Shown: positions 2,923-12,621 of the stretch, piece by piece
Position numbering within the stretch: the first letter of the stretch is position 1
How the letters are laid out: each line of letters begins with the position of its first letter
Assembly: GCA_031278855.1 (NCBI GenBank)
Contig: JAITJR010000039.1
Coordinates: 1 to 12,740, forward strand
Source of the DNA: Mycoplasmataceae bacterium
GTDB lineage: Bacteria > Bacillota_I > Bacilli_A > Mycoplasmatales > Mycoplasmoidaceae
DNA: 12,740 nucleotides
Reading direction: 5' to 3'
Made by a program: the position numbers and the translations under genes
The notes under the pieces: generated by a model
What the model saw: only the letters and a program-made list of their open reading frames with translations
What the model was told of the DNA's origin: nothing
The model's database searches: none

Positions 2923-3723
2923 CTAACTACTTTGTAATACCGTTCATAGTTGTTGAAATAGTAATATCTTAATAGGGTTCACATTAATGTGTGCTAACAA
3001 TTCAAATAATCTTTCGTTTTTAGGCAATAAAGTGGTTAGCATTTTTAAGACTAACTCGATTTGTTTATAGCTAAACTTACTAAATTGTTCTTGTAGTTGT
3101 TTAATGTTAGTTAAATCATTTTTTCTCATGATTAAGTTTTTTACTCATTCATAGACGGTGGTAAATATTGCCTCATGTAAATCTTGCATCACTTCATCAT
3201 AGTTATAATAAACACCACGAATGATTTCCTTTTGTTCTAAAGTTAGACTAAATTTTGACAATTTTTCATCAAATAATTGTAAATTACTTTTGAGAATGTA
3301 AGTTTGACACCGACTGCGAATTGTTGGTAGTAATAAATTTATGGCTCGGGTGGTTAATATGGCATAAGTATTGGCTGGTGGTTCTTCTAAAAATTTTAAA
3401 AGCGAATTAACAGCTTGACTTGATGCATATTCAATCCCGTAGATAACATAAATTTTAATCCCTCTTGCTTCAACGGTAGTTTTCGCAAATTGGTTGATGA
3501 CATTTAATATGTCTTCTTTCTTGATGTTATCGGTATAGCCATTGATAGTAATCATGTCAAAATAAGTGTTAGCATCTATTTTTTGGGCTCATTCATCGTT
3601 TGGTGAAATCGCTACAATCGCTTTAATGTATGCTTTAATGAAAGCCTTGACATCACATAATTTAGCCTCAATTAAAAGAATGGCGTGCGGTTTGTTTTTA
3701 ATATGTAATAAATTATTCACCAT
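2923..3723 (-). CDS. holB: DNA polymerase III delta' subunit (clamp loader)
   Basis: 266 aa. Delta' is the rigid subunit of the clamp loader that opens and loads the beta clamp at replication forks. The diagnostic stretch is [11 protein letters not shown] (106-116), followed by [19 protein letters not shown] (122-140) with the conserved SRC motif. The N-terminal part (HAILLIE...) has no P-loop, as expected for delta', and I see no Cys4 zinc cluster, unlike many bacterial homologues. Three Trp codons are UGA (near nt 3589, 3145 and 2944), so the frame looks broken under the standard code. The start ATG at 3721-3723 overlaps the tmk 3' end by 11 nt; it is the first in-frame Met and gives the normal N-terminus. 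The sequence is divergent, as is usual in mollicutes, but its place between tmk and mnmE agrees with the call. Confidence 0.88.
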
Positions 3724-4375
3724 AGTGAACTTTAATTTTTTCTAAAATAATATTAAAAACATTGGTAGTCACTTCAACTAGTGGTAAAGCTGCATTGACT
3801 TCAATAATCGTATGATTGTGATTTTCAGCGATGATTTTCCGATAACCTTCGTAAACTAGTTGGTGTAGGCTTAGTGCTTCTTGATCTAGGCGATTAAATT
3901 CGCGTAATTGATTGTGACGAATCCGTGCTAATCCTTGCTCAGGATTAATCATAAATACGATCGTTAAATCAGGCAAAACATGATTGATGCCAAAAGCATT
4001 AATACTTCATATTTGGTCAATCCCTAATTTTCGAGCATATCCCTGATAAACTAGTGAAGAATGAATGTAACGATCACATAAAACTAAATTGCCTGCTTCA
4101 ATGTTCGGTAAAATGAAATCTTTGACATGTTGAGCACGACTGGCTGCAAATAACAAAGCTTCGGCTCGGGGCGAAATCTGGTATTCAATGCGGTTTAAAA
4201 GAATATTGCGAATTTCTTCGGCAATCACATTATTTTTACCCCCAGGCTCACGGGTAATTGCTACATTAAAAGCATGTTTATTTTTTTTTAACATATCATA
4301 AACAGCGGCTAGCACAGTCGATTTACCACTTCCGTCTGGGCCTTCAAATGTAATAAATAATCCTTTTTTATTCAT
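3713..4375 (-). CDS. tmk: thymidylate kinase
   Basis: 220 aa, close to the family norm. It phosphorylates dTMP to dTDP with ATP and is essential for DNA synthesis. The P-loop GPDGSGKST is at 12-20, the TMP-binding TREPGG at 41-46, the helix carrying SPRAEALLFAASRAQH at 68-83, and the DRY signature in LCDRYIHSSLVYQGYA at 99-114. A Lid/C-terminal region follows (REFNRLDQE...HQLVYEGY). One UGA Trp is in DQIWSINAFG. The start MNKKGLFITFEG is the usual one, although no strong Shine-Dalgarno precedes it, so it is probably coupled to serS (32-nt gap). Its 3' end overlaps holB by 11 nt. Confidence 0.95.
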
Positions 4376-6082: not shown

Positions 6083-7024
6083 ATGAAACTTGCGATCGTA
6101 TATCATGCATATAAGAACTCCGCTCATCTAAAAAAATCATTAGATAGTATTTTGCTTCAAACTGATCAAAATTTTGAATTTATCTTTATCAATGATGGTG
6201 CTGCACCTGGAGTTACTAAAATTATTAAAGAAATCGACTTTTCAAAATTTAAGAAACTTACTTACTTTAAATATAGTCAAAACTTTGGCCATGCGACCTG
6301 TTTTAATCAAATAATTGCCACCACTAATGCCGATTATGTAATGTTTGTTGGTGCTAATTTCATTCCTGATCAAGCTTTCGTTAAAACCTTAAATGATATT
6401 TTTGAACATAATCCTGATGTGGATGTATTGTCATTTAATACAATTAAAAACGATCGTCAATACCTGTCTTTCGATAAACTAAATAGTAAAATGAATTTGC
6501 TGATTGATCAATCAATGAAAGATAAGATTTTTTCGGTTAAATTGTTACGAAAACATCAAATCTTATTCAACGAGCATGCTTATTTCCCTTTATTATTTAT
6601 TTACCAAGTAATGAGCCAATTTAAAAAATGAATTGTTGTTGATTACGCCCATGCGGTTTATGAAAAAAATAAATTTTTTACGTACAACTTTTATGATGTG
6701 TTTGACCAAAATGATTACTTGATTAGCAATTTTTCGAAATCCAAATTTTGACATGCTAACTTAGACTTAATTCAATACTTTATGATTAATTATGTTATGT
6801 TGATTTTTCTCTTCCGTTTTTTTCACACCTACCCCCAAAATGCCACTAAACAAACTGCCCTGCGAAGAGCCCAAGTGTGACTTGATACCAATATTCCGAA
6901 TTGACGTAACAATAAAATTTTGAATAATAGTAAAAATCGTCAACCAGAAGTATCAACAATTTTGGCTAAACTTAAGTTTAAAACAAATTATTTGGACAAA
7001 ATAATTAGGAAATATAAACTGTAA
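6083..7024 (+). CDS. GT2-like (GT-A fold) glycosyltransferase with altered metal site
   Basis: 313 aa. The N-terminal third follows family 2 glycosyltransferases: MKLAIVYHAYKNSAHLKKSL, then SILLQTDQNFEFIFINDG (Asp38 in place of the usual V-D-D-G), then QNFGHATCFNQIIATTNADYVMFVGANF. These enzymes transfer a sugar from a nucleotide donor to lipids, proteins or capsular polysaccharide at the inner face of the membrane. The usual DxD/DSDD metal-binding motif after the 'A-x-x-D/Y' strand is VGAN (89-92) here, with no aspartates. The activity may therefore be metal-independent, altered or lost. The C-terminal half is less recognisable; it has one hydrophobic stretch (about YFMINYVMLIFLF) that could anchor it to the membrane, and a basic tail. 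Five or so Trp codons are UGA, starting with residue 183. The stop overlaps the next ATG (TAATG), so it is coupled to the RDD protein. Confidence 0.75.
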
Positions 7025-11569: not shown

Positions 11570-11590
11570 GTGAATAGTGCAACTATTCAC
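11570..11590. repeat. perfect inverted repeat, 9-bp stem, 3-nt loop
   Basis: GTGAATAGT and ACTATTCAC flank the triloop GCA with no mismatch. It starts 2 nt after the previous hairpin, so the pair would form two tandem stem-loops in RNA or two dyads in DNA. No U-tract follows on either strand. As it lies between divergent genes, it does not follow any recognised gene as a terminator would. Confidence 0.8.
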
Positions 11591-11724: not shown

Positions 11725-11742
11725 AACGAAAACGACAACGAA
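11725..11742 (+). repeat. triple AACGA hexamer direct repeat, possible operator
   Basis: AACGAA-AACGAC-AACGAA: three copies of AACGA with a strict 6-nt period, ending 7-12 nt before the putative -10 and so covering the -35 position of the Panacea promoter. A fourth ACGAA occurs at 11706-11710. This placement fits an operator or activator site, by inference from position only. Confidence 0.55.
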
Positions 11743-11748
11743 AAGAAT

Positions 11749-11759
11749 TACAATATATT
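11749..11759 (+). promoter_or_regulatory. putative -10 region of the Panacea module
   Basis: Two overlapping -10-like hexamers: TACAAT (11749-11754) and TATATT (11754-11759). Either would start transcription some 10-20 nt before the ATG at 11781. A clear Shine-Dalgarno, AGAGGT (11769-11774), lies 6 nt before that ATG. The -35 position is occupied by the AACGA repeats. Confidence 0.5.
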
Positions 11760-11780
11760 TACTAAAGTAGAGGTAAAACC

Positions 11781-12233
11781 ATGAATAAACAAAATAAAAT
11801 AACAGCATTAGATGTTGCCAAGTTTATTTTGTCAATCATAGATGTAGAGCAAGGAGAAGTGATTTCTAACTTAAAACTACAAAAACTTTTATATTACTCG
11901 CAAGGATTTACATTAGCACTATATGATAAACCGCTTTTTGACGATAAAATCGAAGCATGACAATATGGTCCTGTTGTTCCAAATGTATATGATAAATACC
12001 AAAAATATGGGTACAATAACATACCACCAATTTTAAAAGACGAGACAAACATCGACAGTGAATCAAAAAAAGTAATCCATGCCGTTTATAAAGAATATGG
12101 GCAATTTTCCGCTTTCAAGTTAGTTGAGTTTACTCACAATGAATTGCCATGAAAAGAAGCGTCTGAAAGAGAAGATAAAACAATTTCATTAGATACAATG
12201 AAAAAATATTTCAAAAATCAAATAAATGAATAA
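11781..12233 (+). CDS. Panacea-domain (DUF4065, SocA/GepA-like) protein, probable antitoxin
   Basis: 150 aa; essentially the whole protein is one Panacea domain. The domain core is plain: ISNLKLQKLLYYSQGFTLAL (28-47), then KPLFDDKIEAWQYGPVVPNVYDKYQKYG (50-77). The rest is helical and ends with LVEFTHNELPWKEA (114-127), the usual 'L-x-x-x-T-H-x-x-x-P-W' element. The best-known function of stand-alone Panacea proteins is neutralising a toxin encoded next door; SocA is also a proteolysis adaptor for toxin SocB in Caulobacter. Trp60 and Trp124 are UGA-encoded, so this copy is adapted to the mollicute code and not freshly acquired from a standard-code host. AGAGGT 6 nt upstream fixes the start. 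The 3' end overlaps the partner gene by 8 nt, the tight coupling expected of toxin-antitoxin pairs with the antitoxin first. Confidence 0.9.
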
Positions 12234-12621
12234 GTTTAATGCCCCACTAGTTAAACCAAATATTAATAAGCAAATATCAAGTGATAATGAAGTGCCATCT
12301 TTTGATTTCAAACATAATAAAGTAAATAATTTTAGTGTAGATGATTTAGATAATGAAAATAGAATTGCTTTACTTAATACTTTATATAAATACAAAGATA
12401 TTACGTGAACTCAAATAAAAACAAGCGGAAGGCATGGTGCAGGCACTGAAAAAATAGACATAAGTTCTTTAAGTTTTGTTTTACCTACTTCTATCACTGC
12501 TGACGTAAATTATTTATTAGCGATGAGATATCATGGGAATGCACCTATTTTAGGTTTTAGAGTAGGTAGTATTTTTCATATTGTCGCGATAGACCATAAG
12601 TTCGAAGCATACGAACATTAA
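12226..12621 (+). CDS. small partner of the Panacea protein, probable toxin (unnamed family)
   Basis: 131 aa, overlapping the antitoxin gene by 8 nt in another frame. I cannot name the family. From memory the layout resembles a group of small bacterial proteins with the order 'F-F-x-Y/H ... L ... TW-x-QI ... RHG-x-G-x-E-KI ... P ... D-V-x-x-L ... R-x-x-G-x-x-P-I-x-G-F/Y-R ... I-F-H-x-x-x-I-D-x-x-F-x-x-Y-x-H'. Visible here are ITWTQI (59-64), GRHGAGTEKI (68-77), DVNYLLAMRYHGNAPILGFR (93-112), and the close SIFHIVAIDHKFEAYEH (115-131). The repeated His and Arg (Arg69, His70, His103, His118, His124, His131) are plausible nuclease or RNA-binding residues, by inference. There is no signal peptide or membrane segment, so it should act in the cytoplasm rather than as a membrane-depolarising toxin. 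Trp61 is UGA-encoded; under the standard code only the first 60 residues would be made. The toxin role rests on the Panacea neighbour and the overlap. Confidence 0.75.

Follow-up and report, generated by a model that had tools for sequence, protein, structure and literature searches.

A Panacea-domain gene and its putative RelE-like partner from the PHROG 8366 family in a mollicute genome

Near the end of a 12,740-nucleotide stretch of DNA from a Mycoplasmataceae bacterium (contig JAITJR010000039.1; the whole stretch is referred to here as the window), two overlapping genes, panA and panT, likely constitute a type II toxin-antitoxin pair, in which an endoribonuclease toxin with a RelE fold, probably acting on mRNA at the ribosome, would be held by direct binding of a Panacea antitoxin. 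The order of the genes, their near-obligate pairing and a set of conserved residues are observed directly; the fold model of PanT is confident, and the solved structures nearest to it are mostly RelE-type toxins. We infer toxicity, RNA cleavage, ribosome dependence and direct neutralization, as well as any role in phage defense or element maintenance. Neither half of the pair is new in kind, since pairs with Panacea and toxins with a RelE fold have been described before, and the pair is a widespread new family. Within the literature searched, the step that appears to be new is to place PHROG 8366 and the MAG6450 group in the Panacea-pair architecture and, by prediction, in the RelE fold.

Under genetic code 4, panA is called as a reading frame of 150 amino acids (aa) with two TGA codons (positions 11781-12233, forward strand) and panT as a frame of 131 aa with one TGA codon (12226-12621, same strand), the two overlapping by 8 nt (12226-12233), as the first-pass annotation of this DNA had recorded. 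Translational coupling of the two genes across this overlap is likely. Upstream of panA, AGAGG at 11769-11773 is its likely ribosome-binding site, and a possible promoter (ACGACA-16-TATATT, 11732-11759, 9 of 12 positions, forward strand) is a weak candidate, as six such sites occur in the window against 7.6 expected in shuffled sequence. Tryptophan is encoded in the pair by three TGA and no TGG codons, in agreement with the earlier remark that both genes use UGA for this residue, and the 14 listed genes of the window together contain 30 TGA against 2 TGG. The sole TGA of panT (12406-12408) encodes Trp61, which is tryptophan in all 49 aligned sequences, hence panT must be read with code 4. The existence of relatives at 24-42% identity in many phyla and in phages likewise means that the panT frame is not a chance one. 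The GC content of panA and panT is 0.29, as compared to 0.32 for the window, and their composition resembles that of the neighboring genes; Rfam gave no match. A perfect 9-bp inverted repeat with a 3-nt spacer (GTGAATAGT-GCA-ACTATTCAC) lies at 11570-11590, between panA and a divergent permease gene, and is present as a single copy in the genome when up to two mismatches are allowed. It was considered as an operator of panAT and rejected, given that the Panacea protein has no DNA-binding domain in Pfam and that the site is single in the genome.

PanA is matched by the Pfam family SocA_Panacea (PF13274) over residues 33-125 (positions 11877-12155, forward strand) with an E-value of 7.4e-25 and 88.5 bits against a cut-off of 25.7, and by PHROG 1281 with an E-value of 2.8e-50. 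It has no further recognized domain, the sole other Pfam row being noise (E 0.23), which upholds its description as a stand-alone Panacea protein, and it stays below the cut-off of the SocA model of SocAB (NF047745; 80.5 vs. 190 bits). Validated Panacea pairs include those with Doc, toxSAS, MazF-like and membrane toxins (PMC8832971) and one with MqsR, which is called homologous to RelE in the title of a reference cited there (PMC10440598). In some antitoxins that are free of extra domains, the Panacea domain alone neutralizes the toxin, and does so directly (PMC10440598); direct binding is proposed for PanA because it has no other recognized domain. Partner swapping has also been described for Panacea, and 88 toxin clusters were predicted (PMC8832971). 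With these PanAT systems (Kurata 2022, PMC8832971; NetFlax 2023, PMC10440598), the pair in the window shares the Panacea gene in first position with a small partner directly after it, an antitoxin that consists of Panacea alone, and a spread across phyla and phages. Table 1 of PMC8832971 gives toxin classes and accessions rather than sequences, hence a match of the PanT family to one of the validated pairs would not be visible from it; the family may already be one of the 88 predicted clusters. The papers searched hold no toxicity datum for the PanT family.

The partner had been described as uncharacterized, and this stands insofar as PanT has no Pfam family and no PADLOC match, and falls over residues 11-131 into PHROG 8366 (E 8.1e-28), a family to which no function is assigned. 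The match of PanT to the NCBIfam model MAG6450 (NF046006) reaches 23.5 bits (E 6.3e-5) and lies under the 40-bit cut-off. No Pfam or NCBIfam model of RelE type (YoeB, HigB, RelE) matches PanT of the window, and the families to which the 49 sequences of the core alignment show a match include none either. This alignment (A3) consists of the window protein and 48 relatives, filtered at 90% identity, with loci L001-L007, members at least 90% identical and fragments shorter than 95 aa (L032 and both pieces of L040) left out. A match of PanT to 3no5 (E 0.018) was rejected as chance, 3no5 being an unrelated protein of 275 aa.

Pairing with Panacea was followed through the relatives of PanT. By tblastn, relatives were found in 12 phage and three plasmid records, and a Panacea frame lies just upstream in all six loci examined from these 15 records; in phage phiv205-1 (L003) that frame is broken into two pieces. 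Scans with the partner alignment found 35 loci in genome contigs and 55 in viral contigs, many of the latter being near-identical phages, and the Panacea profile identified a Panacea gene immediately upstream and in the same orientation in 34/35 and 55/55 of them, respectively, i.e. in 89 of 90 loci. These scans were selected on the partner protein alone, hence the pairing is not built in. The pairing of PanT with Panacea is therefore near-obligate, and the frequent adjacency that the first-pass annotation had named as support for pairing is borne out both here and among the distant matches of the class discussed below (11/12, L125 excluded); the partner rarely occurs without Panacea, and no known non-toxin family was matched. 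The sole exception among the 90 loci, L024 from a Bryobacterales metagenome bin, has a TIR-domain frame upstream in place of Panacea; in the stretch 3445-4291 of this locus, the TIR frame (PF13676, E 3.2e-8) directly precedes the partner gene in another reading frame. The distance between panA and panT has a median of 3 nt and ranges from -32 to 119 nt in 47 pairs (A3 minus L024, which has no PanA, and L042, which is cut short), with start codons chosen by script that are uncertain in the longest distances. In the same 47 pairs, the sequence distances of PanA and PanT correlate with r 0.56, as compared to a maximum of 0.23 in 2000 permutations, a correlation to which shared ancestry of the whole locus contributes.

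One variant of the PanT family is found in 34 of 5426 complete Escherichia coli genomes, in all cases on the chromosome. In E. coli UMNK88 (L230, 3001-3420), the partner frame is intact and unannotated in RefSeq, the annotated features in the vicinity being the Panacea gene and a different frame of 309 bases; no annotated feature lies under the match in four of the best five of the 34 E. coli rows.

AlphaFold2 modeled PanT from 49 sequences with a pLDDT of 89.2 and a pTM of 0.79, approximately 20 N-terminal residues being poorly modeled. The model comprises a strand (25-27), two helices (43-56 and 61-66) and four further strands (74-78, 96-103, 106-113 and 116-122); as modeled, the helices of 14 and 6 residues appear too short to span a membrane. 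The relative L021 was modeled with the same order of elements (pLDDT 90.8, pTM 0.77). The RelE fold runs in the order strand, two helices and antiparallel strands, which the order of elements in both models appears to fit, and the guess of a RelE-type protein was recorded from this order and the sequence ahead of the results of the structural search. In that search (Foldseek against the PDB), chains that we assign to the RelE superfamily from their titles, with 8yxv_E, titled just as a toxin-antitoxin complex, counted among them, account for 38 of the best 50 of 90 matches of the PanT model and for 32 of the best 34 of 90, the other two of these 34 being Txp40. For the L021 model, they account for 41 of the best 50 of 145 matches and for all of the best 20 of 145, headed by archaeal RelE (1wmi_A, E 0.049, probability 0.97, TM 0.61 by target). 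The chains matched are YoeB, HigB, RelE/RelJK, YafQ, an H. pylori toxin, Cami1 and ParE types, several rows being chains of one entry. In the same searches no E-value reaches 0.001, the best being 0.16 for PanT and 0.049 for L021, and a search of the viral-protein library yielded no informative match (best E 0.21). Profile comparison of PanT by hhalign with small YoeB and HigB sets produced nothing convincing, in a test without power, as the control comparison of YoeB with HigB failed too. As regards the known families themselves, the HigB_toxin model matched in 0/149 genomes of the class and 0/245 of the phylum, and E. coli K-12 HigB and YoeB as queries retrieved zero and two loci in viral contigs, respectively.

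With the RelE superfamily (YoeB, RelE, HigB and YafQ), PanT appears to share the order of predicted secondary structure and the Foldseek neighbors, whereas there is no significant sequence match, PanT is longer at 131 aa, and its partner is Panacea rather than YefM, RelB or HigA. It had been suggested that the partner is a distinct toxin; this holds for the family, but the fold is probably RelE-like and not distinct. The accompanying suggestion of a toxin directed at RNA or the ribosome gains support, since the predicted fold and the conserved residues point to a RNase of the RelE superfamily.

The candidate active site is drawn from these residues. The sequence blocks named in the first-pass annotation are conserved among the 49 aligned sequences, with His70 in 48 (codon at 12433-12435, within the RHGxGxE block), Gly73 in 49, Glu75 in 48 (12448-12450), Arg101 in 47 (12526-12528), Asp123 in 48, Tyr129 in 48 and His131 in 47, the C-terminal Tyr129-x-His131 being encoded at 12610-12618 (all on the forward strand). 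Glu75, Arg101, Tyr129 and His131 occur together in 46/49 sequences, the exceptions being L008, L033 and L042, which is cut short. In the PanT model, Glu75 is placed on the first strand after the helices, Arg101 on the next strand, and Tyr129 and His131 at the very end. In YoeB, Glu46 acts as the base and His83 as the acid, together with Arg59, Arg65 and Tyr84 (PMC3814384). A conserved Glu, an Arg and a C-terminal Tyr and His in similar order are common to both proteins, compared here by order along the sequence, with the Tyr and His swapped relative to PanT; by this analogy, Glu75 is a candidate equivalent of YoeB Glu46. Arg65 of YoeB has no equivalent in the core family, where column 107 holds proline in 37, alanine in 11 and a gap in one of the 49 rows.

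On this basis, panA as the first gene of the operon would produce a stand-alone Panacea antitoxin, and the product of panT would be a soluble toxin resembling the RelE superfamily. This toxin is most likely an endoribonuclease that needs no metal and cleaves mRNA, probably at the A site of the ribosome in the manner of YoeB. The general base would be Glu75, Arg101 together with other basic residues may bind the RNA and stabilize the transition state, and Tyr129 and His131 at the C-terminus would complete the active site as a candidate catalytic tail. PanA would neutralize PanT by binding it directly, and growth arrest would follow upon loss of this hold.

Of the alternatives, the one that survives best, though rather unlikely, accepts a true Panacea toxin-antitoxin pair with a RelE-fold toxin and directs the toxin at another target, namely tRNA, rRNA or, as for ParE, DNA gyrase. 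Some toxins with the RelE/ParE fold cleave RNA and others inhibit gyrase (PMC10440598), ParE-type chains are among the Foldseek matches listed, and the core family lacks the second YoeB arginine; however, the conserved Glu, Arg, Tyr and C-terminal His suit acid-base cleavage of RNA more than they suit a non-catalytic gyrase binder. It is less probable still, and in our estimate distinctly improbable, that the module is gated by Panacea but that its effector, the partner, has another fold and works by another mechanism, its RelE likeness being a loose match of a beta-meander. Such a reading would accommodate the Foldseek E-values, none of which is significant on its own, and the lack of a profile match for PanT, by hhalign as well, where the control failed too. 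Yet RelE chains that fill all of the best 20 of 145 matches for L021 and 32 of the best 34 of 90 for PanT, drawn from 350,542 chains, would not be expected of a loose match.

The PanT family was also followed into more distant relatives. Among 395 genomes of the class of the window, the PanT profile matched five, namely the source genome and four others with weak matches at five places (L126-L129 and L134), and the MAG6450 model matched six, at eight places of which two lie above the cut-off (L121-L125 and L131-L133), making 13 places altogether, with L123/L124 and L132/L133 being two copies in one genome each. The A3 profile also finds three of the MAG6450 matches (L122, L123 and L124); for four others (L121, L131, L132 and L133) the MAG6450 model is the sole link, which makes their relationship less sure. 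The match at L125 was rejected as chance, the frame having two TGA codons and strong Pfam neighbors in a NlpC/P60 protein and a proton pyrophosphatase. The one distant match that adjoins no Panacea gene, L134, has a DUF218 gene upstream and a contig end close to its downstream side.

Nine distant rows were aligned, L124, L125, L131 and L132 being left out. Asp123 is retained in nine of them, Glu75 in seven, Tyr129 in eight and Arg101 in seven, with lysine in the other two; arginine stands at column 107 in 8/9 and would match Arg65 of YoeB, and position 126 is occupied by His in several rows and otherwise by Phe or Tyr. The RHGxGxE block, which had been put forward as conserved, accordingly holds as such for the core family, and in the distant rows the Glu is kept (7/9) but the His is not, as it occupies its column in 0/9, L126 having a His beside it. 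L127 and L128 match the Pfam model HigB_toxin at the candidate active-site stretch with E-values of 0.0083 and 0.1, both below the cut-off; the model matches none of the seven other distant relatives scanned (L121, L122, L123, L126, L129, L133 and L134). Among PDB sequences, neither the A3 profile nor L127 finds a match, and matches of L128 to hemocyanin were dismissed as chance, being a sum of very weak repeats.

The link to the uncharacterized family MAG6450 (NF046006), a distant relative, is a weak and consistent one, as 44/49 members of the alignment match this model at E-values up to 1 (best 5.9e-7). Of the eight places that the model matches in the class, seven adjoin a Panacea gene, and the eighth is the chance match L125. 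The four aligned rows of MAG6450 type have no equivalent of His131, unlike PanT. In the one paper found to name it, a table of Mycoplasma agalactiae loci, MAG6450 is given as 'CHP' (PMC3179502). As a tentative idea, to which we give a low probability, PanT and the MAG6450-type proteins could belong to one large unrecognized superfamily of RelE-fold toxins that depend on Panacea. Within it, the positions of the catalytic Arg and His would have shifted (Arg present at column 107 or absent from it, His at 126 or at 131), branches would cut different RNAs, and Panacea would act as the sensor, setting the toxins free when a phage infects.

Panacea genes close to panA are also found with other partners. 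Among the best 80 of 169 viral relatives of PanA, 61 have a frame of the PanT family in the stretch fetched and 19 do not, many rows being near-identical phages. Several of the 19 lie at contig ends, the sequence of L149 and L150 running out 3 nt past PanA; the 19/80 without PanT fit the partner swapping of Panacea (PMC8832971). These 19 loci include proteins in which hydrophobic stretches were noticed by eye (L197 and L208) as well as unassigned proteins (L196 and seven near-copies, L209, L210 and L212). At L196 (3053-3409) and L209 (3065-3448), frames of 119-128 aa without Pfam or NCBIfam match follow phage Panacea genes of the same clade and are possibly further Panacea partners. At L215 (497-817), also one of the 19, the partner of a Panacea gene of the same clade matches YoeB_toxin (PF06769, E 1.9e-6, 28.2 bits vs. 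a cut-off of 27), which suggests exchange between RelE-type partners. The source genome itself contains a second Panacea gene on contig C15 (L130, 758-1225; PF13274, E 3.6e-8), followed directly by a protein of 103 aa (1229-1537) that is weakly Txe/YoeB-like (TIGR02116, E 3e-4; PF06769, E 0.019; both below the cut-off), possibly another pair of Panacea with a RelE-type protein in the same organism. On contig C45 of this genome, 7530-7718 (L136) and 6314-6526 (L142) match YoeB_toxin with 69.1 and 63.5 bits, and the frame of the former contains one TGA and two TAA stops.

PanT is found in one of 36 genomes of the genus, that of the window, and the close PanT family is confined to the source genome among the 395 genomes of the class; by identity, the nearest PanT proteins are those of a Novosphingobium (L010, 42%) and of a bin assigned to Chloroflexi (L011, 40%). 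Horizontal gain followed by adaptation to code 4 is likely. The earlier view that the pair has long been settled in mollicutes is therefore sustained in part: the Trp codons fit code 4, but the presence in 1/36 genomes of the genus and four weak matches in 394 other genomes of the class speak against it. An inert or degenerate remnant in the source genome, no longer a working pair, is very improbable, because, despite the single copy near a contig end and the absence from the other genomes of the genus searched, both frames are intact and overlap or abut as in relatives, the conserved residues are kept and code-4 Trp codons are used. The P22-like immunity region is a usual site for accessory genes, and the phage homologs of phiv205-1, Emek and a prophage of E. 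coli have arc and further immunity genes of P22-like type close by; the family is represented in phage Emek by, for example, accessions YP_006560565.1 and YP_006560566.1.

The analysis provides a candidate identity for PHROG 8366, a widespread orphan family that occurs in phages of E. coli, Salmonella and Pseudomonas as well as in the source mollicute and several bacterial phyla, and by extension for MAG6450, and it names four candidate residues, Glu75, Arg101, Tyr129 and His131. A RelE-like toxin would thereby join the list of toxins apparently neutralized by a Panacea domain on its own, which bears on how one antitoxin fold may restrain many toxin folds.
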